The notes beneath the pieces were generated by a model that was not told the DNA's origin, made no database searches, and saw only the letters and a program-made list of their open reading frames with translations. From Planctomycetia bacterium (GTDB lineage: Bacteria > Planctomycetota > Planctomycetia > Gemmatales > HRBIN36), in assembly GCA_016795155.1 (NCBI GenBank), contig JAEUIE010000060.1:1-64000 (forward strand): a stretch of DNA of 64,000 nucleotides, written 5' to 3'. Below, in pieces: positions 21,368-51,177 of this stretch. Both the position numbers and the translations under genes were made by a program. Numbering within the stretch: position 1 is the first letter of the stretch; each line of letters opens with the position of its first letter.

Positions 21368-21569
21368 TGAACCCAAAAATAATCGGAAAAGCGTGAAAGA
21401 TTAGCCAGTTGCGCTCCATCTAGATTTTGTTCAGGGAAGTAAATTCGCTGAATTTCATAAGTATCTGCTTGATCGACTGTTTTTGGCAAAGTAAGATGCG
21501 GGACGAGACTCGAAACAGAAAACAGGTAGTAAGCGTGGTTTATTCCACGTCTTGAGTGGAGTTTTAAGT
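21368..21569 (+). promoter_or_regulatory. Upstream region of the T6SS gene run, probable promoter position
   Basis: 202 bases without a gene before tssB. The region must hold the promoter of the tss run if that run is an operon. GGAG lies 8 bases before the tssB ATG. I could not identify a confident sigma-70 or sigma-54 element. Confidence 0.4.
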
Positions 21570-23588: not shown

Positions 23589-23678
23589 CATCTTTTTGCA
23601 TGAAAAGTGTTTGGGTTCGACGGACCAGATGCTTTTCATTCTGCTCAATCATCATCCGTCGTTACAGGGAGCATAACC

Positions 23679-24262: not shown

Positions 24263-24757
24263 GTGTCGTACGAACCAAATACCAACGTGTTCAAACCCTC
24301 TTTACTCGATCGTCTGCTCGATGCAAACGAAGTGCGTTATGGCCAAACACTCCTGCAACTGGAAGAATCCATACTGAGCGATCTGCAGGATCTGCTCAAT
24401 ACTCGAAGCCCTCCACGAGATCAATTTGCCAATTTGCCTGATGCTGCTAAAACGGTGGCCAACTATGGCCTGATGGATTTTTCCCATTTGGAAATTCAGT
24501 CGCGTGATGACAGAATGCAGATTCTGGATCATATCAAAACACTCATCGAAACCTACGAACCTCGATTGCACGATGTGGAAGTTGTTGAACGTAAGCAGGA
24601 TGATGTAGAAAAAATGGCCAAAGGCGATTTTCGCAAAGGTGCTTTATTTTTTCAAATCAAGGCCAGGCTGGCTGGCAACCCAGGACCTGAAGTGTCATTT
24701 GAAACCATCCTTGAACTGTCAAAGGGGTCACACACCGTCAAGAAGGAATTGTCATGA
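24263..24757 (+). CDS. tssE: Type VI secretion baseplate subunit TssE (gp25-like)
   Basis: 164 residues, GTG start with an AGGGT-like site upstream. Opens FKPSLLDRLLDAN, the standard TssE entry, followed by LEESILSDLQDLLNTRSP and the gp25 core VANYGLMDFSHLEIQSRDDR and IKTLIETYEPRL. The C-terminal FFQIKARLAGNPGPEVSFETILELS completes the gpW/gp25 lysozyme-like fold. It initiates sheath assembly on the baseplate. tssF starts in its stop (ATGA overlap at 24754-24757). Confidence 0.95.
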   Translation: MSYEPNTNVFKPSLLDRLLDANEVRYGQTLLQLEESILSDLQDLLNTRSPPRDQFANLPDAAKTVANYGLMDFSHLEIQSRDDRMQILDHIKTLIETYEPRLHDVEVVERKQDDVEKMAKGDFRKGALFFQIKARLAGNPGPEVSFETILELSKGSHTVKKELS

Positions 24758-29550: not shown

Positions 29551-32500
29551 ATGACTCTGTCTCGAAGAACACGCTGGTTTCAGTCTCGTTTTTTTGAGAA
29601 TAGCAATACACGAAAACGAACGGTGAAGTGCTATCGTCCGGTCATGGATGTTCTGGAAGATCGACTCGTTCCTGATGCTGCTCTCAGTATTCTTGGTGGT
29701 GTCGTAACTTACACCGGCGATACGGGAGCCAACGACTTCTCATTCACTCGCCTGGCTGACGAATACGTTATTTCAAACAACAATCATACGATTGTCACCG
29801 GTGTACCGGGAGTAACTTACAGCAACGGGAATCGCACCGCCACTTTCTCCGCCATTGGAATCTCTCAACTCAATTTCAGCTTTGATTCAGGCAGCGCCAA
29901 CGATGTCTTTCTGGGTGGCTTTGATGCTCCTATCGCTGCACTGAACATCAATGGTGGCAGCAATCCTAACTCCGATGTAACACTTACTGGTACCGGGTTG
30001 ACCTCAACCGGCACTGTCACGCTGATTGGATTCGACGATATGACTATCGGCCAGTCGTTGACTGCAGCCGGAAATATCACCCTGGGCGCGGATGCCATGA
30101 TCATCTCTCAGCCCATCTCTGCCGGCGCTAATCGTGTCACAGTACATACACGAACCAATGATCATGACATTAATCTAGGTGCTGCTGACAATGCCACTCG
30201 TCTGGGTCTGAATGCCACTGAACTCGATTTCATTACTGCAGGAGTTCTCCAGATCGGAAATGCCAATGCTGGTGTGATAACTGTCTCGGCAGCACTTACC
30301 CCCGCTAATGTTTCAACAGTCACGCTCATCACCGGTGCCGCCATTGTTGATTCTGGTTCTCTGACTGTCACCAATTTGCGATTTAGCGCAACAGGAAATG
30401 TTGCCCTGGATGGTGGTTTCAGCACGGTTGCGGGTTCAACCAGTGGATCGGTTAGCATTACAAATAACGCGAATCTCACTGTAGGCAATGTGGATACAGC
30501 CAGCGGTATTAGTTCTGGGGGTAACATTGATGTTGTGGTGAGTGGTTCGTTATTGGTTGCTGCTAATGTTACAACGACAAGCAATAACGACATCACATTA
30601 ACGACCGTCGACGCTGCAGCAGTTGGTCAGAATATTCAAGTGAACGGTACCGTAACGATACAGTCAGGCACTGGCGATCTCATTCTGAGAGCTGGTGATA
30701 ATCTGACTATTGCCACTGGTGCTTCGCTTACGACATCGGGGACAGGTGAGATCAATTTGACGGTTGATTTCGGTAGCGCAGATCCGCAAGGCAATACGCT
30801 CACAGCAATCGGAGTAATCTACAATACTGCAACGATAACTGATTACGCTGGAGGGTCACAGGGTGATACCTTCGTGACGACGGCTTCTGCAAACACAGTT
30901 ATCCGGGTTGCGGGTACAGGAGGCGTCGATACGATCCAGGTCGATGGGGAAGGTCAAGTAGTTACCGCATCAAACGGATTAATCAGAGTTAATACACGAC
31001 AGAATATCACGCTGACCAGTGTTGAGAATGTTTTCGTGATCAACGCCATATTTTTGATCGAAGGTGATGATGGCGATAATACTGCTGTTTACGATCCAGT
31101 TGCAGGGACACTGCAGGTGGATACCACGAATTACATAATTAATAGCAATTCATTCATTTATGATGGACTTGGTGGTTCAGATTCCTTGACTGTGCAAGGT
31201 ACCAATGTTGATGATTCTTTGCTCTTTCGAACTCGTAGTGGCTCGCCTGATACTTCCGAGTTCAGTCTGAACGGCGGTCCGTTCCACGGACTTATCAACG
31301 TGGAATCATTCGACTTTAATGGTTTGGCCGGCAATGATCTGATGACGGTAGATTATGTTTTCGGCAACCCGGTTCGTTCGGGTGGCATCGATTACGATGG
31401 TGGCGGAAACAATGATATCCTGGCTGTTACTTCACCTCTAGCGGATGCTCGAACCGGCAGTTACTTGCCCGGTGCCAATTTTGGTGATGGAACAATTTCA
31501 GTTAGCGGTGGAAACATTCGATTTGCCAATCTCGCACCAGTAGACATTACTGGTTTCGCAACCTTCACCGTACTGATGCCCGACAGCCATGATGTCATCG
31601 ACATTGCTGCAGGCACCGCTTTTACCAATCCACTGCAGAATGCACTTGTTATTTCTGGAAGTTCCTTCGCCACTCCTTTTGAACCATTAGCAGTTTGGAA
31701 TGTTACTAATCTCATCATTGATACCACAACCGTGGCAGGTACAGACACGATTACTCTTGCAGCAACAGGCGCAGCAGCGGCTCACAATGTAGCCAACCTG
31801 CAAATTATCACGGGTACGCTCGTTGATACCGTAAATGTGACTGGTACGGTAAATCTGGCAGGAAGCCTCACGATCGATGTCGGAACAGGCGACAATACGG
31901 TTACTTTCCAGGGTATCACCATTAATGCTCCGACGGGTATTGCTCAGTTGGGTGATGGCAACAACGTGCTGAACGGAATTACTACCACTCTGAATACAAC
32001 CATCGGTAACATCAGTCTGGCTGCTCCTGTGCAAGGTACCGCCGCCAATGCTCAGACTCTGCTGGCCAACTCCAATTCAGGCAATATTGCATTGAACAGT
32101 GTTGGCAACACTGTCAGCCTTAATACGTTGACTTTGACAACGGTAACCGGGACAAATATTCTTTCGGGAATAGACGATCCTCCTGAAAAAGCCTATCGAG
32201 CAGGTACTCAAATTTTCAATGGTGAAACAACTGTCTCAGCCGGAACTGTAACATTTGATGGTACACCACACAATGGTCCCATCACATTCAATGGGACATT
32301 AACCGGTACATCTTCAGCAGTCATAGTCACCACCTCAGGTAACACCAATTTCATCCAGGCAGTCAGTGTCGGTTCCCTGGTGACCAATGGTGGTGGCAAC
32401 ACGCGCATCAACACTGCCACTGTCACCACGGTCAACGGACAGACCTACGATGACGCAGTTGTGCTGCTGGTCACCACTACTCTCACTTCGACCAATAATC

Positions 32501-35343: not shown

Positions 35344-37593
35344 ATGCCTCGTTTCTCACAGCAGAATCACCCTTTGCAGGTCACCACACCCCTGGGCACA
35401 GACAAGCTACTGGCATTTGATCTCAGTGGATCCGAAGCCATTTCACAACTCTATCATTTTCGTCTTGAATGCTACGCGCATCTGGAAGATGCCATTGATT
35501 TTGACAAGTTGCTGGGCGAGAGCATCAGTGTCAGGCTCGAAGTGCCCGGTAAGAAGTATCGCTTCTTCAGTGGCATCTGCTCGCGTATCAGCCAGGGATC
35601 GAGTGACAGTGAATTTACACACTATTCCCTCGAGGTTGTACCAGCTTTATGGTTCCTGACCAAAAAACGACAGTCCCGCATTTTCCAGCATAAGAGTGTA
35701 CCCGACATTCTCAAGGAAGTCTTGCAGGGATTTTCTTTTCAACTGAGCCTCCAGGGTACGTTTGAGCCTCGCGATTACTGTGTCCAATATCGCGAAACAG
35801 ATTTTGCTTTTGCCAGTCGGCTCATGGAGGAAGAAGGCATCTTTTATTATTTCAAGCATGATGAGAGTGGCGCCAAGATGGTGTTGGGAAATTCACCATC
35901 CGCGCATGATCCAATCCCCCATAATGAAAAAGTCACTCTGGTAGATAGCGGGTTCGGCATCGACCAGAATCGTGAACACATTCTTGAATTAGCCAAAACT
36001 CAGGAGGTAATTTCGGGAAAAATAACGCTCTGGGATCATTGTTTCGAGTTGCCTCATAGAAATCTGGAGGCTACCAAAGCGAATCAGGCAACTATTACTG
36101 TCGGCGCAAAATCAATGAAACTGGTGCAGGCAAAAAGCACGAATCTCGAACAATATGATTATCCCGGTGCCTACGCTCAACGTTTCGATGGAATAAACAA
36201 AGGTGGTGGCGAGCAAGCCAGCGAACTGCAGAAAATATTTACAGATAATACACGAACTGTCGGAATTCGTTCCCAGCAGGAAATGGCCAGGGGCATCAGT
36301 CTGACGGGCGCCAGTACCTGTCGTCGTCTGGTACCCGGACACAAAGCAACTTTCGAGTCCATTCCTGATGCAAAAATTGGGAAGATCATGCAGGCTGATG
36401 GCCAATATGTGATAACGCAAATTTCACACCATTGCCGTTCGGATAACTATCGCAGTAATCAAGGAGATTCCCTGTATCGGAATTCGTTCCACTGCATTCC
36501 GCTTGCCTTACCGTTTCGTCCCCAGAGGGCAACACCCAAACCCGTTATTCCGGGTTCACAAACAGCGGTGGTGGTCGGGCCGCCTGGCCAGGAAATATTC
36601 ACTGATAAGTACGGGCGGGTGAAGGTTCAGTTTCACTGGGATCGTCAGGGAACTAAAGATGCAGACAGTTCCTGCTGGGTGCGGGTTGCCACCTCCTGGG
36701 CTGGTAAAGGCTGGGGTATGCTCCATATTCCACGCATCGGGCAGGAAGTTGTGGTCGATTTCCTCGAAGGCGATCCCGATCAACCCATTATCGTTGGCAG
36801 TGTCTGGAATGCTGAGCAGATGCCTCATTACAAGCTGCCCGACGATCAGAATAAAAGTTATCTCAAGAGCAACACTACTCCAGGAGGAGACGGATTCAAC
36901 GAAATTCGTTTCGATGACACGAAGGGCAAAGAACAGATTTTCTTACACGCTGCACGGAATTGTGACACGCGAGTGAAAAATGATGATTTTGAAACAGTGC
37001 TGGGCAACCAGCATCTGATCGTTGGTGATAATAAAAATGGCAAAAAGTATGATCGGATCGAGGAGATAAACCGCGATCAACACACCAAGATCGGCAGGCA
37101 TCAGAACGAGAACATTGGTGGAAACTATTTGTTGACGGTCGGGTACAATGAAGCTGGTTCGGGCAACATGGATGTAAAAATCGAGAAAGACCACAAGATG
37201 GCGGTCGACGGTAACGATCACCTCGTAGTTAAAGAATCGAGTTTGGAGAAGATTGGTAAGGACAAAGTGATTAATGCTGCCAGCAGTATTCTCACCGATG
37301 CAGGATCGGGTATTCTGCTCAATGCTGCTCAGGAAATTTACATCAAAGCGGGCATGAATATCATTCTGGAGGCTGGCACGCAAATCAGCCTGAAAGTAGG
37401 TGGTAATTTTGTTGATGTCAGCGCCGCCGGAGTTGCCATCAACGGCACAATGGTGTTAATCAACAGCGGCGGGGCGGCTGCTTCTGGCACTCTCAAGAAA
37501 GGTCCGGACGCAGAAGAAGCAAAGAAAGCCGAACCAGTAGCACCCAAGTTGGCAGATGATTCGAAATCGGGTCAGAAATCCTGTGCAGGCTAA
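35344..37593 (+). CDS. vgrG: Type VI secretion spike protein VgrG (TssI)
   Basis: 749 residues, ATG preceded by GGGAGGA. N-terminal gp27-like part: PLGTDKLLAFDLSGSEAISQLYHF, YSLEVVPALWFLTKKRQSRIFQ, CVQYRETDFAFASRLMEEEGIFYYF. gp5/OB-fold: GQEIFTDKYGRVKVQFHWDR, SCWVRVATSWAGKGWGMLHI PRIGQEV-type block, LEGDPDQPIIVGSVWN, then NEIRFDDTKGKEQIFLHA. The beta-helix needle follows (NEAGSGNMDVKIEKDHKM ... AGTQISLKVGGNFVDV). The C-terminus is a short charged tail ending KSCAG with no effector domain. The PAAR gene starts 19 bases after the stop. Confidence 0.97.
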   Translation: MPRFSQQNHPLQVTTPLGTDKLLAFDLSGSEAISQLYHFRLECYAHLEDAIDFDKLLGESISVRLEVPGKKYRFFSGICSRISQGSSDSEFTHYSLEVVPALWFLTKKRQSRIFQHKSVPDILKEVLQGFSFQLSLQGTFEPRDYCVQYRETDFAFASRLMEEEGIFYYFKHDESGAKMVLGNSPSAHDPIPHNEKVTLVDSGFGIDQNREHILELAKTQEVISGKITLWDHCFELPHRNLEATKANQATITVGAKSMKLVQAKSTNLEQYDYPGAYAQRFDGINKGGGEQASELQKIFTDNTRTVGIRSQQEMARGISLTGASTCRRLVPGHKATFESIPDAKIGKIMQADGQYVITQISHHCRSDNYRSNQGDSLYRNSFHCIPLALPFRPQRATPKPVIPGSQTAVVVGPPGQEIFTDKYGRVKVQFHWDRQGTKDADSSCWVRVATSWAGKGWGMLHIPRIGQEVVVDFLEGDPDQPIIVGSVWNAEQMPHYKLPDDQNKSYLKSNTTPGGDGFNEIRFDDTKGKEQIFLHAARNCDTRVKNDDFETVLGNQHLIVGDNKNGKKYDRIEEINRDQHTKIGRHQNENIGGNYLLTVGYNEAGSGNMDVKIEKDHKMAVDGNDHLVVKESSLEKIGKDKVINAASSILTDAGSGILLNAAQEIYIKAGMNIILEAGTQISLKVGGNFVDVSAAGVAINGTMVLINSGGAAASGTLKKGPDAEEAKKAEPVAPKLADDSKSGQKSCAG

Positions 37594-37612
37594 CGTAGCA
37601 GAGGGTAATGTC

Positions 37613-37900
37613 ATGCCACCGGCAGCACGCGTAGGCGATATGCATGTTTGTCCCATGGTTACCGGTGTGGTTCCGCATGTCGGTGGCCCTATCCTGCCGC
37701 CTGGCTGCCCAACAGTATTGATTGGCTTCATGCCTCCAGCACGTCAGGGTGATATGGCGACGTGTGTTGGGCCACCCGATGCAATTGCCATGGGTAGCCC
37801 GACCGTGTTAATAGGTAATATGATGGCTGCCAGACTGGGTGACCCCACGGTGCATGGTGGTTCGATTGTGGTCGGCTTTCCCCAAGTCATGATTGGATAA
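37613..37900 (+). CDS. PAAR-repeat spike-tip protein
   Basis: 95 residues from the ATG at 37613 (AGAGGG upstream; the longer frame from 37556 runs inside vgrG). PAAR motifs: MPPAARVGDMHVCPMVTG, HVGGPILPPGCPTVLIG, PPARQGDMATCVGPPDAI, MGSPTVLIGNMMAARLGDPT, HGGSIVVGFPQVMIG. It is the conical tip that sharpens VgrG and usually binds a metal through His and Cys residues present here. No C-terminal toxin extension, so cargo, if any, must bind non-covalently or be encoded elsewhere. Confidence 0.96.
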   Translation: MPPAARVGDMHVCPMVTGVVPHVGGPILPPGCPTVLIGFMPPARQGDMATCVGPPDAIAMGSPTVLIGNMMAARLGDPTVHGGSIVVGFPQVMIG

Positions 37901-37970: not shown

Positions 37971-39119
37971 TTAGAACCGGATGCGGAATTCCGCTCGCCA
38001 CTGACTCTGTCCCAGGTACTGTTCTGACAAGGCGTGAGCATAGCCCAGACCGAAGTCGTAATTATCGCAGTAGACAAATCGCAAGCCAGGTCCGATGTTG
38101 CAATAGGTCTTTCCACCAGCGGGCGCCACTCCATCCACCAATCCGGTCGTGAAGCTCCAGCCGTTGAATTCGGCGGTACCGATGATCTGCCAGGGTCCAC
38201 GTTCTGCGAACAGATGATTGATACTCCAGTGGTAATGTAATACTGCACCACTCCATGCTGGATCGCCACTGATGGGAATCCAGTAGGCAACCTGTTGCTG
38301 AAGGTAGGTTGCATCGAAGAGTTTCAGGCTAGCCAGAAAGGAGGGTTCCAGTGAAACGTGTCCTGTGCCCAGTCCGCTCGAAGAGGCTCCCGTTGGCAGA
38401 AACGTCTTGAACTGGAAGGTCAGTTGCAGTAATTCGCAATCGAGCAGCAATGATTTGGTACCCAGGTTCATATCGACGAAGCCTGCGTTGTGTCCTTCAG
38501 TATAGTCCAGTGAACGATATGGCATTTCGATAAAGAACGCTGCTTTGTCGCTCGCCACTTCCTGATACATGGTAACTTCAAAGGAATCGAGTGCATTGCT
38601 GGCAGGGCCGTTTTGCGACATGAAGTATGTGCCAATGCGGGAAGCACTCATGTTTTGAATCGTATCGAAGCGATAGCGGGTGTAAGTCTTGGGTCGAACC
38701 GTATCCTGGAAGAAAGCAGCGTTGGCAGTGTGCACCCATATTGGTTCATAACAGGGGTCAGGGCAGCACAGGCATTCAGCCAGGCCGCCAAAGAAGGTGT
38801 CGCAGAATCCGCTGCCACAATTGGCAGTGTATCGGCATTTACTGCCAGGCTTACACAGGCCACTCTGGCAGGTGTCGCCACACAGTGTGCCAGCAGATCC
38901 ACAACTGGAACAACCAGTATGAACCATGGCTGATGGTCGCAGTGTTCCGCAGGAACTGCATTGTACCTGCAGGATGTCGCTGACAGGTGCTTCAGAGACG
39001 ACGGTGCCCGTTAAGGCTGCCCGTGCATAATCAGGCAGGTTATCTCCTGATTGTGCAGACACCTTGCTTGATAAAGGCAAGCCGAGGCAGGCAACGGTGA
39101 TGATGGCGAACAGTCGCAT
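37971..39119 (-). CDS. Secreted protein: Cys-rich N-terminal segment plus beta-barrel-like domain
   Basis: 382 residues from the ATG at 39119 (AAGGAG 10 bases upstream). Signal peptide MRLFAIITVACLGLPLSSKVSAQ. Residues ~48-125 hold about 19 Cys, including two CSSCG motifs, CGDTCQSGLC, CGSGFC and CLCCPDPC. The rest is rich in aromatic beta strands: TYTRYRFDTIQNMSASRIG, AAFFIEMPYRSLDY, SLLLDCELLQLTFQFKTFL, LHYHWSINHLF, and the end AEFRIRF, an outer-membrane-barrel-type terminal strand. Inferred: outer-membrane barrel with a disulfide or metal-binding cap. No named family recognised. Confidence 0.75.
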   Translation of the reverse strand: MRLFAIITVACLGLPLSSKVSAQSGDNLPDYARAALTGTVVSEAPVSDILQVQCSSCGTLRPSAMVHTGCSSCGSAGTLCGDTCQSGLCKPGSKCRYTANCGSGFCDTFFGGLAECLCCPDPCYEPIWVHTANAAFFQDTVRPKTYTRYRFDTIQNMSASRIGTYFMSQNGPASNALDSFEVTMYQEVASDKAAFFIEMPYRSLDYTEGHNAGFVDMNLGTKSLLLDCELLQLTFQFKTFLPTGASSSGLGTGHVSLEPSFLASLKLFDATYLQQQVAYWIPISGDPAWSGAVLHYHWSINHLFAERGPWQIIGTAEFNGWSFTTGLVDGVAPAGGKTYCNIGPGLRFVYCDNYDFGLGYAHALSEQYLGQSQWRAEFRIRF

Positions 39120-39249
39120 ACCGTGGTTCTCCTTCGCTTCGCAGCCGGTACTCACATGAGTGTTGAATTCAGTGAGGTGGTTCGGCAATCAAATATCCAT
39201 TGTTTCAAAACTTCTGTCTGTTGGTTCGTACAGCGATTCTTCACCGCTA

Positions 39250-41124
39250 TTAGTTACCATTGACCAGTCGCAGGTTGATTTGCGCCAAGGCCTGGTTTGC
39301 TTCTTTGCCGACAGCAGTATCCGCCTGAATTCCCAACTGAGCCAGAACCGGAATGGCCTGCTCAGCACGAACTCCTGTGCGAACCATAGCCCTGATAGCA
39401 GCACAGCGAACGGTATCCTGGCTATCCTGCTCTGCGGTCTTGATCAATTGGCTGGCTAGTTCAGGCGTTGCCTTGTCAAATGTCGTCAGGCTCTCGATCG
39501 CCACGATGCGTTCATGAACCTGGCCCATGGAGATTTTCTGAATCGTGGCCTGCATTGGATCAGTCCTGGTCGTTGATGGTGCTGCCACAGATTGTGTCAC
39601 CACTTGTACTGGCTGAACAACAGGCTTGGCAACCGGCTTTGTCTCAACCGCGGGCTTGTTAACTGCAGGTGTCTTGGCCACCGTTGCAGACTGGGTGACG
39701 GGAACTACGGTTGAAACTGGTTGAGCAGCTACTGTGACTTTTGGTTGCATTAGCTGAGGAGCTGCTTGCCTGGGTGTGGGAATTGGTGTAACCGTCTGTA
39801 CTGAAACCGGTGTAGATTTCATGACAGGAGGCGGTTGTACAGCCGGTAGTGCTGGTGCGCTGGCTGGAACTTGAACAACTGGAGGAACTCTGGTCTCCGG
39901 GACAGTAACTACAGGTTGTGTAGAGGTCCCAGCTGATACAGCCAGCGGAAGTGGTGCTGCAGTACTGGTTGTCAATGGAGTTGCAGCGGGTTGTGGCACC
40001 ACCCGAGGTGTTTCGCTGGCAACCACGGTTGACCTGGCTGGGTAGCTGGAAACCACCACTGGCTGATTACGCCCTGTCATCATTTCCCACAGATTCTTCG
40101 GCTTGGATGCTACCACTTCTGCCTGGCCGGGTAAACCGCCATGTACGATATATCCCTGGGTCTGCGGGGTTCCCGACGCACGATCAAAGAGGCGGGCCAG
40201 CGAGTTTCCACTCGATACCGGGATCGCGCGAGAGGCTGTAGCAGCCAGGACGCGGCGTCCTTCCCGAACGATGGCTTCCATCGGCTGTTTCTCAATAAAG
40301 GCGTAATAATCTTCGCCTTTTAAACGAGTGTCGTTGATCTGGCGTGGTGTATTGGAGCTGGCTTTGGATGCAGGTTGTCCAGCCTTTTCGGGATTGTCCT
40401 GTTTCTTGTTGTCGCCTGGTTTTTCGGGGTTTTCTATGTTCTGCTTGACAGGTGTAACATCTTCAAAGCAGCTCAGACACTTTTCCAGTGCGATGCGTGA
40501 AGCGGCGTGCACTCTCGCCGAGGTCTCTTTGGGGAAATTATCGCGATCACTGCAACTGAGAACGATAATCAGGGTTTCGATAGTTGTTTTGTTGCAGCAG
40601 CATCCGTTGGCCAGCGCGAGTGCAGCTTCGTAGCGAACGCATTCATTACGGTCAGATCGCAAGGCCGTAACGAGGGCTTTCCCAGCTTCCGGCCAGTAAT
40701 GGCAATCGACCGTTCCCAGATAACGAACAGCAGCCCGTCGTTCCTTGGCAGCAGCTTCATCGGCCTGGATTTTGGCAGCGGCACCGACAGCGCCTTTATC
40801 TGCCAGTTGCTCTGCCGTGGGTGTTTGTGGACAGAATGATGGAATCAAGCCGCCCGTCATGGCGCCTAACGGAGCGCTGGCGTTGTTCAGCATCTGTCCG
40901 ATCGGCATTTTGCAGATTTCACGACGGCAGGCCTCCTTCTGTTCCCAACTGCAACCAAGAAATGACCAGAGCGTTCGCTGGGGAGCTACAGGTCCAACTG
41001 CAGATGCTACCGCAGGCGCCTGGTTGATGGCTGCGGTCGTTGCACTCTGCTGTGCCTGAGCATGTGTTGATAACACAGAAGCTGTCACCAGACTTGCCCA
41101 ACACCATACATGTCGCATTTGCAT
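39250..41124 (-). CDS. Exported HEAT-repeat protein with long Pro/Val/Thr-rich linker
   Basis: 624 residues. Signal peptide MQMRHVWCWASLVTASVLSTHAQAQ. Residues ~45-230 contain HEAT/armadillo-like helices (RRAAVRYLGTVDCHYWPEAG, ALVTALRSDRNECVRYEAAL, ALANGCCCNKTTIETLIIVL, TSARVHAASRIALEKCL) interspersed with Cys pairs. Residues ~330-540 are a low-complexity Pro, Val, Thr, Ala linker. The last ~80 residues return to HEAT repeats (HERIVAIESLTTFDKATPEL, VRCAAIRAMVRTGVRAEQAI, VGKEANQALAQINLRLVNGN). Resembles planctomycete HEAT-repeat scaffold proteins; likely a periplasmic or surface scaffold. Partner unknown. Confidence 0.78.
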   Translation of the reverse strand: MQMRHVWCWASLVTASVLSTHAQAQQSATTAAINQAPAVASAVGPVAPQRTLWSFLGCSWEQKEACRREICKMPIGQMLNNASAPLGAMTGGLIPSFCPQTPTAEQLADKGAVGAAAKIQADEAAAKERRAAVRYLGTVDCHYWPEAGKALVTALRSDRNECVRYEAALALANGCCCNKTTIETLIIVLSCSDRDNFPKETSARVHAASRIALEKCLSCFEDVTPVKQNIENPEKPGDNKKQDNPEKAGQPASKASSNTPRQINDTRLKGEDYYAFIEKQPMEAIVREGRRVLAATASRAIPVSSGNSLARLFDRASGTPQTQGYIVHGGLPGQAEVVASKPKNLWEMMTGRNQPVVVSSYPARSTVVASETPRVVPQPAATPLTTSTAAPLPLAVSAGTSTQPVVTVPETRVPPVVQVPASAPALPAVQPPPVMKSTPVSVQTVTPIPTPRQAAPQLMQPKVTVAAQPVSTVVPVTQSATVAKTPAVNKPAVETKPVAKPVVQPVQVVTQSVAAPSTTRTDPMQATIQKISMGQVHERIVAIESLTTFDKATPELASQLIKTAEQDSQDTVRCAAIRAMVRTGVRAEQAIPVLAQLGIQADTAVGKEANQALAQINLRLVNGN

Positions 41125-41426: not shown

Positions 41427-43139
41427 TCATCGTTCTAATGATAAAGTTACGGTTTTTTCCCCACCTTTTTCTACCGTTACCACTTCCCTGGCTTGAGCAT
41501 TATCTTCGCGTTGGCAAACGAGGATATAACTTCCAGCATTGAGATCGGTGAAGGTAAAGTTTCCACTATCGTCTGTCTTGGTGGTCTTCACCGGCATCTT
41601 TTTGTCATCGAACAGCGCTACTGTAAGTCCTCGTTGCGGACGATCACCCTGAACCACGTTCCCCTTAATGGTCGCCAGTTTTTCTTTTGAAGAACTCATC
41701 GCAGGGTCTTCAATCAACACATCCATGATATGTGTGGAAGTCAGGCCAACTCCATTTTCCATGACAACGCCTAGCTTGGCTCGGCCTTTTTGATCAGGCA
41801 ATGTCACGTTTGCCTGCCAGCTATTACTTTTATCAGATTCCGTGGCCGGGATCAGTTTCTCAGGTTCTTTAGGAGCAACATCTCCTAAGAAGAAAAATGC
41901 TTTGCTGATCCCTGTTGGACTTTCAGCAGTGGCAGTTGCCAATACCTTTTCGCCAAGCTGAAACTTCTGCTTACTTTCATTCAGGGATATCCTGATATTC
42001 TTGGGGCGTTCTTTACTGAAGACAACCGTCCATTTTGCTCTTTCACCTAGTGGCGAATCATCTTTTTTGACTAACTCCGCTTCAAATTTACGTTCTCCAT
42101 TCAATCCTTCAGATACTATCTCCAGTGGCCAATCCTGGACGATCGGTTTAATGGAGAAAACTCCTTTATCAGAACTGCTGAACGCCAAGTCAATTTGTCG
42201 AGTGCTGGGATAAGATCTAAGAAGATTCATGCTTCCAATATTAGCACGATCGAAATAAACATTGATTTTGGCATCTTCCACTTCCAGATTATCCACCTCG
42301 ATTCGAGCTTTATACTTATTTTCCGGATCTGGTTTCCAGTAGGTTGGGCCATTAAAACGAATCACATTTCGATCAGGCAGGCTTTTCAAGCCCGTGCCAG
42401 GCACCATATTGGTCACATAAACTTTTGCACGAGGTACGCCGTCTACTTTGATGGAAATGAAACCATCATCAACTGCATTTTTCTTAAACTTGAGTTGCTG
42501 GAGTGCAAGAACAGCATTTTCCTTGTCAGTTGCGTTAATGGAATCAAGCAGGCTCCCTGCGAACTCCTGGCCCGGCAGAAGATTACGCAAGGCAGAACAG
42601 TCGAGTTCCAACCTGCATTCAGGACCGCGAAAGTTGTTTTCGCGTTTAATGTCCACTTTTAAATTACCATTTTTGTCAAGTTCCGGCGTAAACTTGAGAT
42701 ATTCTTCAGGTTTCATGATTTTGAGCTTGACTGACTTGCGAAGGATCTCTTTATCTTTATCTTTTTTATCCAGAACGCTGAATATTAATTCGTTTCCATT
42801 TGGTACCTGAAGTGGTTTCTCCAGTTTGATCAGTATTTCCTGAATGTTCTTACTCATAAGAGTAATGTCATCCAGTTGTTTCAACAACACTTCACCATCA
42901 TTGCTCCGGCAGAAGATCTTCAATGCCAGTTTTTCATCGATAATTTCATCATTTCTGAGGAAAAGGTATAGTGGTAATTCTGTGTTTGGTCTGAGTGGAA
43001 GTGTCTCAAAACGATCCTGTGCCCTGTTCGCGTTCGCTTCAGTGCCAATCAATAGAGTAATTCTCTCCTGAGCCCATGCTGCTGGAATCCACATAAACAA
43101 GAGCAGAGTTAAGGTGGCGTAAACTCTTGGATAATTCAT
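41427..43139 (-). CDS. Secreted protein with C-terminal carboxypeptidase-regulatory-like domain
   Basis: 570 residues from the ATG at 43139, with GGAAGG 9 bases upstream; a TTG at 43160 is less likely. Signal peptide MNYPRVYATLTLLLFMWIPAAWAQ. The bulk is beta-rich, Ig-like in character (residues ~25-470), with blocks such as LPLYLFLRNDEIIDEKLALKI and ATAESPTGISKAFFFLGDV. Residues ~490-570 (IKGNVVQGDRPQRGLTVALF, TTKTDDSGNFTFTDLNAGSY, EVVTVEKGGEKTVTLSLER) are a carboxypeptidase-regulatory-like (CarboxypepD_reg) fold. Third gene of the apparent operon with the two pseudo-caspase proteins, 77 bases after the second, so probably a periplasmic partner. Function unknown. Confidence 0.75.
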   Translation of the reverse strand: MNYPRVYATLTLLLFMWIPAAWAQERITLLIGTEANANRAQDRFETLPLRPNTELPLYLFLRNDEIIDEKLALKIFCRSNDGEVLLKQLDDITLMSKNIQEILIKLEKPLQVPNGNELIFSVLDKKDKDKEILRKSVKLKIMKPEEYLKFTPELDKNGNLKVDIKRENNFRGPECRLELDCSALRNLLPGQEFAGSLLDSINATDKENAVLALQQLKFKKNAVDDGFISIKVDGVPRAKVYVTNMVPGTGLKSLPDRNVIRFNGPTYWKPDPENKYKARIEVDNLEVEDAKINVYFDRANIGSMNLLRSYPSTRQIDLAFSSSDKGVFSIKPIVQDWPLEIVSEGLNGERKFEAELVKKDDSPLGERAKWTVVFSKERPKNIRISLNESKQKFQLGEKVLATATAESPTGISKAFFFLGDVAPKEPEKLIPATESDKSNSWQANVTLPDQKGRAKLGVVMENGVGLTSTHIMDVLIEDPAMSSSKEKLATIKGNVVQGDRPQRGLTVALFDDKKMPVKTTKTDDSGNFTFTDLNAGSYILVCQREDNAQAREVVTVEKGGEKTVTLSLER

Positions 43140-43216
43140 TTGAGATAACCTTCCAGACAATCATTTAAGATATTTGTGAGTCATTATTTTGATCCAGTAA
43201 AGTACTGGTGTCAATT

Positions 43217-46039
43217 CTATTTCCACCGTGCCGATGAATTATTCTGCTGATCTTGGAGCCATTCTAAATAGGGCTTAGCGTTCTCTTTGTGTAATTGAAA
43301 AATGGCATCCTGTGTTTTAGGTTCAGGTAGAACCGCTTCCAGCCTGGCTGCCTTGAACCACTGCTTGTTTTCCCGCAGCTGTTTCAACTGTTCAGGTGCC
43401 TTCTGAATCCAGGCATGGCGAAGGGCGTTAGCACAGTTTTCCCAATCATCCATTGTTATTTGAGTATCATTTATTTGAATATCTTTGACGCCAGCAAGTT
43501 TTAAAAGCGCGATCGAGATGTCACGTCGCCTTGATGCATGTTGTAATTGCGAACTAACCGGGGATGCAGAGGTTGGGGGATTTCCAACACCAGTCGTGTC
43601 GCTGGCTTCGATTCCAGTTGTTCGTTCATGCAGAAGTTGATGTTTTTTGATCAGTCGAGGATAGACTTTCCTGCGATTTTCCGAGGAGAGCATTCCACCC
43701 TGAAGTACACATTCCAGCTTATTGCACGCTGTGGCATCGACTGGAAGATTGTCCAGGTTTTCGAGAATCTCACTCTCAAATCGCTGATTACTCTTCAGCA
43801 ATTTCTGTCTCGCTGTTTCTACTGCGCGAGTTTGAACACCATTATCCTCATTGAACTGTCCCTGATCAATAATATCAGCCAGTTTGATCGATTCCGTTAC
43901 CAGGTTATTCCAGTATTTAAACATCTCTTCATCGGGATGTGTAATCATCATCTCCGCTGTTAACTGTAAGATAGCCAGGCTTTTCCACCATGCGGTATAT
44001 GCCTGATGTTCGAAGTCAACTGTCTTCAAAACCTCCCCATACTCTTGGACTAGTTTTTCGATATCAGTCTTCAAAGTTCTAAAATGTCTTGGATGATGGG
44101 CTTCCAGCAATTTGACGAATAGTTCAGAGTGTTTTTGCCTAACCTCTCGTAATCTCGACTCATCTCTTTTAAATCCCAGACCATTTGGCAGAAATACTGT
44201 GTTTAATTGCATAACAAGAAATTCAAGCTGCAGCCAGGCATGCAATGTTTCAATGAACAAGGCATTCATTTGTGGATGATCAAACTTCCACTTGCCCATC
44301 GGTTGCTGTTGTCTGATGAGATAATCAAGAATCTGCAATTCGATATAGTTGGTAGTTAAAGGTCGTTTGCCCCAATCATTAATAACTGCTTTCATGACCT
44401 GTTGTGTGAGTATACATTTTTCCAGAGTGGGATTATTGCTTTGACAGAGTTTCTTCCAACAGAGGTACAGCATGTCGCGGTGCCGACCTGGACGCTTGTT
44501 CTCAGTATCTTCCTTAACTGCTTTCAATACTACATCAGGGGGGAACGATGCAGCGGGCTTTTCAGATTTGCTGCCCGAATTGAAATTAGTGTTCAACGCT
44601 CCAAACAGTGTCTCATAAACGTTTTCCAAATCGTCAAATCGTTGTGGATCTTGCCGAGGGAAGAGTGCAGACAAGCTGTTGTTTTCAATCAAGGATCGCG
44701 ATCCGAGTAACTCTTTTGCATTATCATCCATGTGTTTTTTCGGATCGATCTCTGCCTTGTTAAGTAATAGATCAATAGATCTTTTGATCGCATCATCTTT
44801 CAGCATTTCTGCTGTACAAATGAGCGAAGTGTTTTCGTAAAGGTGCAGAGTTTTCTCCAGTTTCCACATGTTCGTGAATTGCAATTCAGGTTCGGGATGT
44901 TCCAACCTGCTGTATTTGATTTCCGGTGATGTTGACAACAGATATTTCATATTCAGCTGTTGGTCACGCAGTTCCCAGTTTTTCAGAACTGGTCCAAAAA
45001 CAGTATCAATGAACCGGTTCTCCGCTTCCAGTTGCTTTTTCACCAGATTTTCCTTCTCTTCCTTGCTTTCAGGTTTTGTTGCACTGGCGGGTGATGCCGC
45101 ATCATTTTTTGATGCGACTGGCTTATCTGTTTCAACAAAAACCAGATCGAAGTCTCCAGTACCGTACAGTCTTGGATTCTGAGGTTGCCCTCGATTTTCC
45201 ATTGACCACCGACTCACTCTGTTTCTGACAAATGAGGCAAGTTCCTTGGCGGTGACATACGTTGATTTATTTTTTTCTTGAGCTCCAAACCCGTTGGCTT
45301 CTCCCGATAAGCCTTTTTGCAGGTAGTAGCCAAACGCGCTTTTCCCCTGAGATGGCATCGTGTGGCTGATCTCGCCCTTCGAACATGAGGTCAAGACCAG
45401 CAACCGGTTTTTTTCGAAGGTCACGTGTTTATTCAGCCAGCTATCCAAAGCCTCGGCAACATCATTGATTAATGGGCCTCGGTACAGATCGGTCATCGGC
45501 GATGCGATATCAATCAGTAGCAGCACGTGTTCACTGCGTAATTCTTTAATTTTATCAAAGATATCTTCCATACTCAGCCAACTGCCAGGGTCATCCGGAC
45601 GGGCGTCGGCAGGAAGCAGGTAAACCGTGTTACCTCGTCTAGCGCCCAGTCCTGCCAGATAAATGATCGTGGTAGTTTCCTTCTGATCGGACAATCCATT
45701 GAGAAATCCCAGAATTTGTTTCTTTTCCTGTATTGGATGAGGGTTCTGATATTTCTGCTTGACTGTTTCCTGGAGTGCCTTGTCGTCATAATAAAACCAG
45801 AAAGGCGATGGCCAGGGCTGCTGATATTCAAAGACCGGAATGCAGAATAACTTTGGTTTTTTCGCAGTTCCAAAGAGGAAATATGTTCCACCGATCAATG
45901 ATCCAGTCAGAACTACCGCCAGTAATAAGAGAATCAGCCGGCTTTGCTTATCCAGTTTTTTATAACTGACGGTATCTGCCGTTCGCCATTGTCGCGAGAA
46001 CCCGGATGAACCGGCAGCAGATGTGGGGGAATCAGACAT
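43217..46039 (-). CDS. Membrane-anchored caspase-like (peptidase C14 fold) protein, catalytic residues missing
   Basis: 940 residues from the ATG at 46039, with AGGAG 10 bases upstream. A basic N-terminus and one helix (RLILLLLAVVLTGSLIGGTY, about 35-58) predict N-in, C-out topology. Residues ~60-320 follow the C14 caspase fold: strand KLFCIPVFEY, then TTIIYLAGLGARRGNTVYLL PADA-type block (about 120-142), LLLIDIASPMTD (about 173-184), LLVLTSCSKGEISHT, and FGYYLQKGLSGEA. In active members the first block has HG and the second DxCxxG; here they read LG and DIAS, so His and Cys are replaced. Residues 330-940 are helical, coiled-coil-like, without a known domain. Second gene of the operon, 38 bases from the 1699-residue gene. 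Confidence 0.72.
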   Translation of the reverse strand: MSDSPTSAAGSSGFSRQWRTADTVSYKKLDKQSRLILLLLAVVLTGSLIGGTYFLFGTAKKPKLFCIPVFEYQQPWPSPFWFYYDDKALQETVKQKYQNPHPIQEKKQILGFLNGLSDQKETTTIIYLAGLGARRGNTVYLLPADARPDDPGSWLSMEDIFDKIKELRSEHVLLLIDIASPMTDLYRGPLINDVAEALDSWLNKHVTFEKNRLLVLTSCSKGEISHTMPSQGKSAFGYYLQKGLSGEANGFGAQEKNKSTYVTAKELASFVRNRVSRWSMENRGQPQNPRLYGTGDFDLVFVETDKPVASKNDAASPASATKPESKEEKENLVKKQLEAENRFIDTVFGPVLKNWELRDQQLNMKYLLSTSPEIKYSRLEHPEPELQFTNMWKLEKTLHLYENTSLICTAEMLKDDAIKRSIDLLLNKAEIDPKKHMDDNAKELLGSRSLIENNSLSALFPRQDPQRFDDLENVYETLFGALNTNFNSGSKSEKPAASFPPDVVLKAVKEDTENKRPGRHRDMLYLCWKKLCQSNNPTLEKCILTQQVMKAVINDWGKRPLTTNYIELQILDYLIRQQQPMGKWKFDHPQMNALFIETLHAWLQLEFLVMQLNTVFLPNGLGFKRDESRLREVRQKHSELFVKLLEAHHPRHFRTLKTDIEKLVQEYGEVLKTVDFEHQAYTAWWKSLAILQLTAEMMITHPDEEMFKYWNNLVTESIKLADIIDQGQFNEDNGVQTRAVETARQKLLKSNQRFESEILENLDNLPVDATACNKLECVLQGGMLSSENRRKVYPRLIKKHQLLHERTTGIEASDTTGVGNPPTSASPVSSQLQHASRRRDISIALLKLAGVKDIQINDTQITMDDWENCANALRHAWIQKAPEQLKQLRENKQWFKAARLEAVLPEPKTQDAIFQLHKENAKPYLEWLQDQQNNSSARWK

Positions 46040-46077
46040 GCAAGCCAAGCTCCTGTTCTGGCAAAGGAATCAGCACC

Positions 46078-49000
46078 TTAGCGGCTACCTTCCGCATTCT
46101 GGGGCGCTGGCAACTCGGGGCCTCTCCAATACGTAATATCCTTCGGGACAGTGATTCCGATGGTCGGTTCTTTTTTATCCTGCATCGCGGCACTGATATC
46201 CATCATTTCCAGATGGATTATTCTTGACTTTTCTTCAAGCAGACTTTCTAAAAGCGGAGAGAAATAAACCGTCGTCGCCTTGTCAAAATAATGGTGATCG
46301 ACACGCTTTGCATCGATACCTGATATGACTTTGAAATAATACCGTTTCCCTTCATCATGCATTACTCGCAACACCAGACAATCTACTTTGGATGCGGAGC
46401 GAGTTTGACACTTATCGATGAGGTAGTGATGTTCCCTGGAAAGTAGCAGCTCAGGCTTGCCTTTTCTTAGTTCATAAGGTGAACGTGGATTCAGATCGCT
46501 TATCTTGAAACTTAACGGTTCACGGTTCTTCAGATTGTCATCGAAAACCCATGCATTGAGCTTCAATATTTTGTCTTCTTTCGGGCATTGATCAATATCC
46601 CAGGCAGGAGCTAGGTAATAGCCTTTGTTGGAAATATGCACTGTTCCCGCTGCTGCTTCTTCCTTGCCATTATTAATGGCTTTGACATCCCACCAGACAA
46701 AAAACGGCTTATGCTGCCTGAGTGCTCTGGAACCGTCAATTGGTTGATCGAAAGTTTTTTCCAAGGTAGTAGTCATACGTCTGCGAGTGTAGGAATTTGC
46801 TTCGTTTGTTTGGCTGATATCTGTTAACATCAGATGCCAAAGGGGATTCATCTCGTACTGATCCTTGTTGAATCTAGGTTGATCTTTCCAGTAATGCGCA
46901 AACAACTCGCGAGAATATTTTACTTTATTATTCTGATCATTCAGCAGTTTGATAAACAGGTGGTCGCCAGAAGAGAATGTAATAGCCTGCTCATGTCCGG
47001 TCCAAACGCTCGACTCATAATTGCCAGGCGATAATTCGTGGATCAAGTCATCAAACTTGCCAAGTCGTGGAGCAGAATAGGACTTTGGATTAAATGGCTT
47101 TCCATTACCACCATCGTTATTTTTTGTAAGCAGGATCTTGGGACAAAGCGTTTCATTGAGTGATTTGATTAAATTAGCCGGGTCTGACACAAGCACGATA
47201 TCACCGGGATTCTTGAACTTCCTGATGCATTCAAACTGTTTCTCTGCGACTTTCCATTCACGTGATGTGGTCACGGCAGAAGCATCGTTGAAATACACAA
47301 TACGTAGACAGACATTATGTTCTTTAAAAATACGCTTAATCTTTTCGCTGATTTTCTCTACAATTTTTTCCTCTTCTTCTGCATTCATTTTATCCGGAAT
47401 TAGACCGCTGGAACTATCCGCACCGTCGGTGAGCACCAGCATAGTAACATCTTCGGTACCTTTCGCTGATTTTCTGATATCCTCTTCGAGACACGTCTCC
47501 ATGGACTTGATGAGTGGAGTAAAACTGCGGGGCGGAAGATCAAGCAGGTAATCAATTAAATCCGAGATAGGAATATCGCTTTTTGATTTATATTCATTGT
47601 CATCCTGGCTCTTCTTTTCGTTAACTTCTCCCGAGAAATATCTTTTATCATCTTCTCGACGTTTAATGCTACCCCTGCAGAACAGCCAGCTTGGAATAGT
47701 TTGAGTAATCTCACCATACTTCTTTTCGTAATTCTCTCCATATTTATTTATGAAGTCAGTTTTTGTCCACGGAGCAGATCTACTATCACTAAAAATGCGT
47801 ATCGAAATGTTGACCCCTTCGGGCAGGTTATTGAGCAGTGCAGCCAATCCATGCACAGCTTTGTTTTTCCGAGAATCAAATTGTCTCTCCGTAAGACCTG
47901 CCCTTTTAGCCTTTTCCTTGTCGTCGGGACTTAGATCCATGCTGCCTGAATAATCCATCACAATCGCTAAATGCCCGAGGCCTATTTTCAGATCCGTATC
48001 TGAGATTACACTGAACGACGCTCTCTGTTCCTTTGGCAACTCCGACACAATCAATTTCGGTTGACGATTCACCACAACCGTCAGATCACTCTTCTCTTGC
48101 CATCCTCGGAAGAACAGCCTAGGATTGAAGGTCAACGGCAACGTCTGCGTTTTGTCATCCAGGTTTATTGGATCGCCTTTTAATTTGAAATCAAGTTTTA
48201 GCTTATTCAAGTCAATGGCTCTTCGCTTAACGCCTCCCTCCAGGGAAATGGATGATTTAGCCGAATTCTTTTCATCTTTTATTGGTTCATCCACCCATAA
48301 CGCAGCTTTCCCTTGAATTTTATCTGGCAACTCTTTTTTTACTTCGATAGACCGGTCCTGTGTCAGTTCACTAGTCCAGAGGATAGATTCTTCATGATTA
48401 GTAAAACTGAGCGACTTGCCTGAATTCTTCATCATCTCCTGGATTTCTTTTTCAGGATCGCGCTTAACGGGTGCATCATCAAGGCATATCTGAGCAATCG
48501 TCTGAAAATACGGTTTATTATCGTTGTACCAGTGATCGAGACAAATGCGGTAAGCCTGGGCGTGCAGCAGATCTGTCCACAACCGTTCCCTGTTTGCCAA
48601 GGCAGGTTCCTTCCAGTCCTGATCTAGAGGACGAAGCCTCAAGGTAAAGCGGCTGAAGTCTTCCAAATTTTCAGAGGTCGGTACAGATCCTGCAGAATTT
48701 ACCTGCTTGCTGACAGCATCTTTATTTTCATTCTTGCTGAAAACTTTATCGCGTTGTTGCTGGAATTCACTAGCAAGGCTGCTGGCAAGTGCATCGGCTA
48801 TCGATTCCCAGTTGCTAGTTTGCTGCAATTTTCTCAGCTCTGTATCCTTATCGCCTCCCAATCTTGCAAATTGCATCGAAAAACGCTGTTTCACGATTTC
48901 CTGAATGGAGTTTTTGCTTTCTCCTCCTTTATACGGTTCGTTATTAGCTTTATGCAATTTCTGGCTGATGTTCAATAATTCCTTTAACTCCGTATTTCGT

Positions 49001-51177
49001 AGATGAGTCCATTTTTTGGCATCATCATCAAGCGGCCAGGGAAAACTGAGCAGCAGTTCTCGCCGATACCTTCCTTTTTGTTGGAGATCCAGATCCTTGA
49101 AAGCCTTGGCAAAAAGCTCATATTGTTCTTTGAGTTGCTTCTCGATGGTTAAGACGTTTGCATCGAGCGATTTCCATTTTTCTTCTGTTGCATCGATACT
49201 CTTGATATCGTTCGGTTGTCGGTACAGGATTGTGTTGAGTTCGCTGTTCAAATTGTGAATCTGTTTCCAGAGATCTTTGATATTTTGCACTTCGTCTTTG
49301 TAACTGTTGGTGGAATCTGCCATCCACGCCATATGAAATTGTGTTAAACAGGTTGCTTCACTTACGGCACGATGGTAGACAGAGAGTGCTTTCTGGAGTC
49401 TGGGAAGTACTTTCAAAACCTTTTGATATGAATCCTTGGCATCTTTTAACTGTTGTTCGGCTTTTTCATAATCGTGGGTAAACAGAAGATCTTCGCCCTG
49501 TCTTCGCAGTTCATCAGCCTTCCGAACTTTCATGCTGATCAGCGGCCAGATGCGTTCCGAATATAAAAAGCCTGGAAATTCAGAAACGCCGAAGGTGGCA
49601 CGTTCTGCCAGATATCTCGTCTCTACCGCGAGTGCCCGGAGAGATAATGATCGTTGTTTATCGTTTTCATTTTTGACCCCATGTTTATTCAGCATCCAGG
49701 CCAGATGTTCTTCCACAGTGGCAGGTGGCGCGCCGAGTTTTTCGACATTCTCCAGAATCGTATTGGCTGCGATCTTTCGACTTTCTGGCTTCTCATAGTA
49801 ATTATTCCAGACCAAGCTGGTTTTTTCCACATTTTTTGGAATTCGCTCGCGGGCTTTTTCCATCGCAGTGATAAGGGTATTCAGTTCGTCACTGATAATC
49901 TGTACCGCTTTGGTATAACTTTCATCTTTGGCATCCTGGTTACTGAGGCGCAGGCATTGCTGCAACCGTTGAACCAGCGCACGGTATCGCTGCCAATGAA
50001 CAGGGGTATAAACCTCTGGCCTGGGGCTCTGTCTGGGGCTCTTCTTAACCAAGTCTTGTTCTTTCTGGTGATAATGCTCCAGCTGCTCCAGCACTTTCAC
50101 TTTCCAGTCGATTGGAGAAGAATCCTCGTTTGGTTTGCCTTCTGCTTTTGTGGTGTTCTCTCCGTGTTCAACCAGAACTACTTTGCTGCTATCCACACCG
50201 TTACCGGACAACATGATGGGGGTTTGCCCATTCACAAATCGTTTACTGGTCCAGTCAGAGGTCTGCTTTTTCACGTCTTCAAAAAAACCGGCAAGAGTTA
50301 GACTGGGTTCTTGATTGGAGTTCCTGGTATTTCCCTGTAGTGCTTCCAGAACTTGTGCCAGGAACACACTGCTGCCAAATTCATCACTGTTCCAGGCGGT
50401 TTCCCCCGGACTGCTGCTGCAGATGATGGCACAATGAGGAATCTTTTCGATTCTCTCCTTCATATTTTTATTTTGTAACGCACGTACGAAACCATTATGC
50501 ATCATTCCGGTTTCAGGATGAAAATCTATTCTTGCTGCATCAAACAGCAGAATGATGGGGTCTTTCTCTTTTCTTTGGTTAGCAACTTTCTCAAGTCGGT
50601 TTAGAATCTCATTAACAGGAATTTTGTCATCTGCGCCAAAGAGCATGGGTTCACTGTTTTCTGTCAGCCCCAGCATGCCAAAGTAAACGATTACCACTCC
50701 CGGGGTTACTTCAATTTGGTCGAAAACATCGCGTAATGTATTGTTGTTGAGCGAGTAGGGTTTGCCGGATTTGCCGTCTAGTTTTACTTCCAGATTTTTT
50801 CGGCCCCACCATTTAGCCAGGAAAGAACTCGACTTCTGCTCTTGTTCGGCATTTTGTGAGTTAATCCAGTTTGCCAGTTTCAAACCACCCAGCCAGCCAT
50901 GCAGATCTAGAGGCGTTTCCAGATTCCTGGCTACCTCCGCAGGATTAACACCCACTAGAATGATGGTTGCAGCATCCTGTCTTCCAAGTTTGAGTATCAG
51001 AACAACAATGACTGCCACACACATGAAGATTCCGAGCAACAGCGATAACTGTGTCGTGCGTCGCATCCACCAGGAGGTAGAAGGGCCTTGCGAAGCGGGT
51101 TTCCAGCCATATTTTGGCTGGCGTGCAGGCTTCTTACCACCTCTCCATCCCATCGGCTGATTTTTATCATCAGGCAT
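46078..51177 (-). CDS. Giant membrane-anchored protein: caspase-like domain, helical region, von Willebrand A domain
   Basis: 1699 residues. Basic N-terminus and one helix (about 42-64, LSLLLGIFMCVAVIVVLIL) predict most of the protein outside the cytoplasm. Residues ~70-320: caspase-fold features, VVIVYFGMLGL (about 160), PIILLFDAARIDF (about 212), CAIICSSSPGETAW, VFLAQVLEALQ; the HG dyad position reads LG and the DACxxG position reads DAARI, so it looks inactive. Residues ~350-1000: long helical region. Residues ~1070-1330: vWA domain with the metal site intact, DYSGS, Thr in RSFTPL and LTDGADSS. C-terminal ~350 residues beta-rich, unknown. First gene of an apparent operon with the 940- and 570-residue genes. 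Probable role: extracytoplasmic scaffold or sensor. Confidence 0.74.
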   Translation of the reverse strand: MPDDKNQPMGWRGGKKPARQPKYGWKPASQGPSTSWWMRRTTQLSLLLGIFMCVAVIVVLILKLGRQDAATIILVGVNPAEVARNLETPLDLHGWLGGLKLANWINSQNAEQEQKSSSFLAKWWGRKNLEVKLDGKSGKPYSLNNNTLRDVFDQIEVTPGVVIVYFGMLGLTENSEPMLFGADDKIPVNEILNRLEKVANQRKEKDPIILLFDAARIDFHPETGMMHNGFVRALQNKNMKERIEKIPHCAIICSSSPGETAWNSDEFGSSVFLAQVLEALQGNTRNSNQEPSLTLAGFFEDVKKQTSDWTSKRFVNGQTPIMLSGNGVDSSKVVLVEHGENTTKAEGKPNEDSSPIDWKVKVLEQLEHYHQKEQDLVKKSPRQSPRPEVYTPVHWQRYRALVQRLQQCLRLSNQDAKDESYTKAVQIISDELNTLITAMEKARERIPKNVEKTSLVWNNYYEKPESRKIAANTILENVEKLGAPPATVEEHLAWMLNKHGVKNENDKQRSLSLRALAVETRYLAERATFGVSEFPGFLYSERIWPLISMKVRKADELRRQGEDLLFTHDYEKAEQQLKDAKDSYQKVLKVLPRLQKALSVYHRAVSEATCLTQFHMAWMADSTNSYKDEVQNIKDLWKQIHNLNSELNTILYRQPNDIKSIDATEEKWKSLDANVLTIEKQLKEQYELFAKAFKDLDLQQKGRYRRELLLSFPWPLDDDAKKWTHLRNTELKELLNISQKLHKANNEPYKGGESKNSIQEIVKQRFSMQFARLGGDKDTELRKLQQTSNWESIADALASSLASEFQQQRDKVFSKNENKDAVSKQVNSAGSVPTSENLEDFSRFTLRLRPLDQDWKEPALANRERLWTDLLHAQAYRICLDHWYNDNKPYFQTIAQICLDDAPVKRDPEKEIQEMMKNSGKSLSFTNHEESILWTSELTQDRSIEVKKELPDKIQGKAALWVDEPIKDEKNSAKSSISLEGGVKRRAIDLNKLKLDFKLKGDPINLDDKTQTLPLTFNPRLFFRGWQEKSDLTVVVNRQPKLIVSELPKEQRASFSVISDTDLKIGLGHLAIVMDYSGSMDLSPDDKEKAKRAGLTERQFDSRKNKAVHGLAALLNNLPEGVNISIRIFSDSRSAPWTKTDFINKYGENYEKKYGEITQTIPSWLFCRGSIKRREDDKRYFSGEVNEKKSQDDNEYKSKSDIPISDLIDYLLDLPPRSFTPLIKSMETCLEEDIRKSAKGTEDVTMLVLTDGADSSSGLIPDKMNAEEEEKIVEKISEKIKRIFKEHNVCLRIVYFNDASAVTTSREWKVAEKQFECIRKFKNPGDIVLVSDPANLIKSLNETLCPKILLTKNNDGGNGKPFNPKSYSAPRLGKFDDLIHELSPGNYESSVWTGHEQAITFSSGDHLFIKLLNDQNNKVKYSRELFAHYWKDQPRFNKDQYEMNPLWHLMLTDISQTNEANSYTRRRMTTTLEKTFDQPIDGSRALRQHKPFFVWWDVKAINNGKEEAAAGTVHISNKGYYLAPAWDIDQCPKEDKILKLNAWVFDDNLKNREPLSFKISDLNPRSPYELRKGKPELLLSREHHYLIDKCQTRSASKVDCLVLRVMHDEGKRYYFKVISGIDAKRVDHHYFDKATTVYFSPLLESLLEEKSRIIHLEMMDISAAMQDKKEPTIGITVPKDITYWRGPELPAPQNAEGSR

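Follow-up and report, generated by a model that had tools for sequence, protein, structure and literature searches.

The window, that is, the complete stretch of 64,000 nucleotides that was analysed, carries three adjacent open reading frames on its minus strand, encoding proteins A, B and C (Table 1). Counted from the ATG starts of B (position 46039) and C (43139), the genes are separated by 38 and 77 bases, as described in an earlier note on this DNA; counted from a TTG, B comprises 943 aa. That note took the products for an extracytoplasmic signalling or scaffold complex of two pseudo-caspases and a secreted partner, and overlooked that the same window contains genes of a type VI secretion system (T6SS), a contractile molecular harpoon, between positions 21552 and 37900. 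Together with TssK, TssL and a short TssM of 547 aa, which are encoded side by side on another contig (C10) of the same genome, these genes make up a T6SS core with the sheath (TssB/TssC), the tube (Hcp), the baseplate (TssE/F/G/K) and the spike (VgrG/PAAR). The TssL on contig C10 was recognised by PF09850 (E 1e-13) and has one C-terminal transmembrane helix.

Three further genes were observed in this region. A 1877-aa protein without a Pfam match is encoded between TssG and VgrG and has a partial relative in L139. The gene of a 405-aa secreted protein, by eye probably an outer-membrane beta-barrel and a candidate outer-membrane partner, has homologues beside the T6SS clusters of seven loci (L034, L035, L043, L044, L099, L134 and L141). 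Finally, a secreted HEAT-repeat protein is encoded next to C and is also found near A in L034, L049, L094, L100 and L173.

Table 1: Features of the T6SS region and of the A-B-C genes in the window.
Feature	Position	Strand	Basis or description
TssB	21552..22100	+	PF05591, E 1e-57
TssC	22104..23588	+	PF05943, E 3e-131
Hcp (TssD)	23607..24164	+	PF05638, E 1e-34
TssE	24263..24757	+	PF04965, E 3e-16
TssF	24754..26655	+	PF05947, E 8e-184
TssG	26655..27824	+	PF06996, E 4e-83
1877-aa protein	29551..35184	+	no Pfam match
VgrG (TssI)	35344..37593	+	PF05954, PF04717
PAAR spike tip	37556..37900	+	PF05488, E 4e-22
405-aa secreted protein	37971..39188	-	probable beta-barrel, by eye
HEAT-repeat protein	39250..41124	-	secreted
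Protein C	41427..43139	-	secreted; string of MG/Ig-like beta-sandwiches, CarboxypepD_reg at end
Protein B	43217..46039	-	tail with one W motif, one TM, dyad-less caspase-like domain, helical solenoid
Protein A, 1699 aa	46078..51177	-	basic cytoplasmic tail, TM, caspase-like, helical, beta, vWA and C-terminal beta domains
A, vWA domain, ~aa 1066-1350	47128..47982	-	MIDAS D1075-x-S-x-S, T1220, D1251
A, caspase-like domain, ~aa 66-330	50188..50982	-	PF00656 and alignment
A, His position L169	50671-50673	-	alignment; Cys position is D213-A-A (A214-A215)
A, transmembrane helix, aa 44-62	50992..51048	-	N-in, positive-inside rule
A, cytoplasmic tail, aa 1-43	51049..51177	-	short; two conserved W-R/K/Q motifs (W11, W25)

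Domain architecture of proteins A, B and C

Both large proteins possess the single N-terminal helix noted earlier, at residues 44-62 in A and 38-56 in B. Since the positive-inside rule predicts an N-in orientation for A, its caspase-like, helical and vWA parts would be located in the periplasm, and the same plan is predicted for B. The W-R/K/Q motifs recur in the tails of most homologues, usually twice in A and once in B, and W11 and W25 of the A tail are nearly invariant among 21 homologues.

The caspase-like fold proposed for both proteins was supported by two routes. A matched PF00656 over residues 149-288 with an E value of 7e-5, which is above the curated cut-off, and the same family was matched by five of 21 A homologues (best 9e-10). 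For B itself no caspase match was obtained with Pfam, and its similarity to the caspase model NF047832 (E 4e-4) remained below the cut-off of that model; the A profile matched the caspase region of B with an E value of 2.4e-35. Profiles of A (residues 64-949) and B (34-903) aligned over approximately 820 columns at E 6e-57, which identifies the two proteins, as judged by profile comparison, as paralogous across the caspase and helical domains and assigns the caspase fold to B by homology. The paired subunits suggested in the earlier note are thus in fact paralogous.

Alignment placed L169-G and D213-A-A of A, and L134-G and I181-A182 (DIA) of B, at the catalytic His and Cys positions, confirming the loss of the dyad in both proteins of the window. 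The LG reading is special to the present genome and does not extend to the family, as HG is retained in 26 of 34 full-length A homologues. The canonical Cys of the D-x-C motif is absent in 30 of these 34 and was found in none of the 29 homologues of B, or of fused B-C proteins (BC), that were listed. As the Cys is confined to so few proteins, the caspase-like family is mostly pseudo-enzymatic, with both residues lost in both proteins of the present genome, although A may still be active in some lineages. Four A homologues (L034, L035, L037 and L133) contain the Cys, and all four also have HG, so that their His-Cys pair is apparently intact (HG with DVC or DSC) and they are possibly active caspases in a T6SS. 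The earlier statement that the complex is not proteolytic hence holds for the present genome, but the intact His-Cys pair of A occurs in three lineages (L034/L035, L037 and L133). An active or conditionally active caspase-family protease complex, serving T6SS effector processing or self-killing, would be in line with these four proteins; against the missing residues in A and B of the window and the missing Cys in the great majority of A and in all B/BC proteins listed, we regard it as extremely improbable.

The vWA domain of A has both the typical fold and the MIDAS pattern DxSxS...T/S...D, which reads D1075-Y-S-G-S, T1220 and D1251-G. The metal ligands, described as intact in the window, proved to be invariant in all 21 homologues for D1075, S1077, S1079 and D1251, and 12 of the 21 matched PF13519 (VWA_2). 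An AlphaFold model of A (mean pLDDT 74) matched vWA domains in Foldseek. When residues 500-1699 were compared with the PDB by this method, the vWA matches were PilB, Ku80 and CMG2, with the part comprising the vWA and beta domains resembling the pilus tip protein PilB, and TssM was not among the matches. A PDB sequence search with A1 and A5 gave nothing useful, and NCBIfam holds no name for A.

C begins with a signal-peptide-like stretch in which no lipobox was read and ends in a CarboxypepD_reg domain (aa 497-576, E 2.8e-11), consistent with the secreted protein described before. B is joined to C in a single protein of 1350-1900 aa in about 17 loci. The fusion in L043 is collinear and in register, B corresponding to residues 1 to ~900 and C to ~930 to the end. 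A model of this BC protein (residues 390-1589, mean pLDDT 87) shows a helical solenoid and, after it, a row of about seven beta-sandwiches of macroglobulin/Ig type. Foldseek returned beta domains like those of complement and alpha-2-macroglobulin with low whole-chain TM-scores, and the search was therefore used for the domain type only and not for similarity of the whole protein. On the A tree, the separate form of B and C needs at least two changes; as L036 and some rows of the class sample were labelled fused with no BC gene in view, we do not decide firmly between fission and fusion.

Co-occurrence with the T6SS and a shortened TssM

The order of the three genes was checked in relatives and recurs in most of the approximately 20 loci examined, and the frequent fusion of B and C strengthens the reading as paired subunits with a conserved order. 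The view of an extracytoplasmic complex was supported, and the signalling role attached to it found no support, leaving the earlier interpretation upheld in part. Neighbours of A-B-C in relatives are again T6SS genes, namely TssK, TssA, TssB, TssC, TssE, TssF, TssG, ImpE and VgrG; on account of these neighbours, an assignment to conflict systems that contain caspase and vWA domains (PMC7159879) was set aside. In one relative from the class (L134), the genes are transcribed in the order tssK-tssL-tssM'-A-tssF-tssG, tssM' denoting the short tssM gene. A directly follows tssM' in L137, L146 and L147, and in two Singulisphaera loci (L094 and L099) a tssK-tssL-tssM' block in convergent orientation comes after A and BC.

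Co-occurrence was analysed in 61 genomes of the order, the present one included. A was detected in 26 and TssC in 25 of them, both in 24 and neither in 34, so that A accompanies TssC in 24 of 25 cases and occurs in two of the 36 genomes lacking TssC (Fisher p 1e-13, which, like the values below, overstates independence between related genomes and serves as a guide only). Both genomes with A only are draft assemblies with A itself split across contigs or frames, and each of them contains a short TssM, as do all 26 A genomes of the order (p 1e-12). One genome (G053) carries TssC and a short TssM with no A detected, its tssM' lying 232 bases from a contig edge, and four genomes (G017, G048, G052 and G058) matched the short TssM, with TssC and A both undetected. 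Among 20 separately sampled genomes from other orders of the Planctomycetia, full-length A, a criterion that was applied after the matches had been seen, was present in exactly the eight TssC genomes and in none of the 12 others (p 8e-6). Matches to the full A profile were rejected as a measure for the phylum: the 163 of 294 genomes concerned matched nearly always through unrelated caspase or vWA proteins, and the phylum count was restricted to open frames of ~1600-1900 aa with a match in the caspase region.

Relatives also differ in the copy number of their T6SS genes. Tandem tssC pairs were observed in nine genomes (G014, G020, G037, G056, G060, G003, G147, G197 and G254; e.g., loci L135, L139 and L142), the second copy being more divergent, and two TssC paralogues may build the sheath. 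Two different A-B(C) sets in combination with several tssC genes are found in G028 (L034, L038) and G049 (L031, L050), which suggests two T6SSs in these genomes, each with its own A-B(C) set.

Taken together, gene neighbourhood and co-occurrence strongly argue that A, B and C belong to the T6SS. One might instead consider a separate envelope system, for example an adhesin, a surface scaffold or a signalling device, that merely travels with T6SS genes: in the window the trio lies 3.5 kb from the PAAR gene, the nearest T6SS gene, and is convergent to it, and the PilB-like part of A would suit such a system. Three findings speak against this possibility, namely the association over 61 and 20 genomes, an operon in which A is flanked by tssM' and tssF, and the coinciding loss of part of TssM; we consider it very unlikely.

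The shortened TssM (TssM') matched PF14331, the IcmF-related N-terminal domain, in all 25 homologues; hydrophobic helices lie close to its N-terminus, and a further one closes the protein. It stops 0-17 residues past the last transmembrane helix in 39 of 41 rows, in which some loci appear twice, and in the present genome it ends 1 aa past TM3. Profile comparison with the full-length TssM of sister classes, which extends for ~900-1000 residues beyond TM3, aligned TssM' with residues 15-472 (E 1.4e-18). PF06761 (TssM), covering part of the region missing from TssM', did not pass its cut-off in any of the 61 genomes of the order or in the 20 of the class sample, but did so in 35 genomes of other planctomycete classes, where the open frames measure ~780-1500 aa and mostly 1100-1400; for PF06744 nothing over the cut-off was obtained in the present genome. 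On these profile searches, the truncation is judged to be a trait of the lineage and not an artefact of assembly.

A proposed periplasmic conduit and its relation to known systems

How a T6SS crosses the envelope depends on its membrane complex. The adjacency of tssM' and A indicates that A sits at the place of the remaining TssM part, and we consider it likely that A, B and C constitute the periplasm-spanning part of the T6SS membrane complex in Planctomycetia, replacing the periplasmic half of TssM. Direct descent from that half was tried and rejected, as hhalign of A and BC against four full-length planctomycete TssM proteins gave E values of 0.28 or worse; since A and BC share no similarity with periplasmic TssM, the replacement is deduced from genomic context. 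TssJ is perhaps also replaced by A-B-C. Near the T6SS clusters no recurrent lipobox protein was found, nor was an outer-membrane anchor for A-B-C identified.

The retained base would consist of TssL and a TssM ending just past TM3, on which A, B and C would stand. The cytoplasmic tails, with their two motifs in A and one in B, probably dock on TssL, TssM' or the baseplate. We infer that A and B together form the periplasmic wall of one conduit, in which the caspase domain would serve as a folded building block rather than as a protease, and the beta-string of C, fused to B or separate, could extend toward the outer membrane. The metal site of the vWA domain probably holds a partner subunit or a ligand of the envelope or the prey. 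With somewhat less confidence than in the replacement itself, we favour the view that a conduit rebuilt from two paralogous pseudo-caspases on half a TssM represents a third type of membrane complex among T6SSs, in which the caspase fold is structural.

The main competitor of this proposal is an accessory or regulatory function of A-B-C, such as contact sensing or a firing gate operated through the vWA or caspase domain, with unrecognised proteins forming the trans-envelope channel. Domains of both types are often regulatory or ligand-binding, and the His-Cys pair in three A lineages as well as the widely retained HG hint at a non-structural role in some of them. Nevertheless, A-B-C accompany the core genes almost without exception, in contrast to typical T6SS regulators, A adjoins the truncated tssM, and the clusters yielded no other large, conserved protein of the periplasm, making such a function unlikely.

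The proposed conduit resembles the canonical TssJLM complex (T6SSi) in its TssL (DotU), in the N-terminal cytoplasmic domain and membrane helices of TssM and in the standard baseplate and tail genes. It differs in that TssM ends after TM3, the IcmF central and C-terminal region being undetected by profile search, and in the additional A, B and C, which show no sequence relationship to the part that TssM has lost; full-length TssM exists in other planctomycete classes. In the T6SSiii of Bacteroidota, TssNQOPR take the place of TssJLM, with TssR containing a vWA domain and TssN serving the baseplate (PMC10781749). Both cases share the non-homologous substitution of membrane-complex parts by periplasmic subunits with a single transmembrane helix, one of them with a vWA domain. 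However, T6SSiii lacks TssJ, TssL and TssM altogether, whereas the Planctomycetia keep TssL and the cytoplasmic/membrane part of TssM. Their subunits are pseudo-caspases, with no PKD-like TssP or vWA lipoprotein TssR recognised among them and no lipobox in C; the vWA domains of A and TssR are alike as far as their descriptions go.

With C14 homologues, i.e., orthocaspases, EACC1-associated caspases and pseudo-orthocaspases, A and B share the caspase fold, as seen from PF00656 and the similarity to NF047832, and, with the last of these, the loss of catalytic residues. In pseudo-orthocaspases, His and Cys are reported to be replaced by Tyr and Ser (PMC6426788), a pair that differs from the replacements in A and B. 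In contrast to these homologues, A and B are predicted to be periplasmic, membrane-anchored and paired, are linked to a T6SS and are fused to helical, vWA and MG-like parts.

A search of the open-access literature turned up no work on T6SS membrane complexes of planctomycetes, and no kinds of such complex beyond TssJLM and the unrelated TssNQOPR. A half-TssM base combined with caspase-like subunits would mean that the periplasmic part can be exchanged as a module, the cut lying just past TM3. The proposal offers a function for a planctomycete family of 1700-aa proteins without a library name and would add a structural role to the caspase fold. With vWA domains in two unrelated membrane complexes, a task common to both becomes testable.
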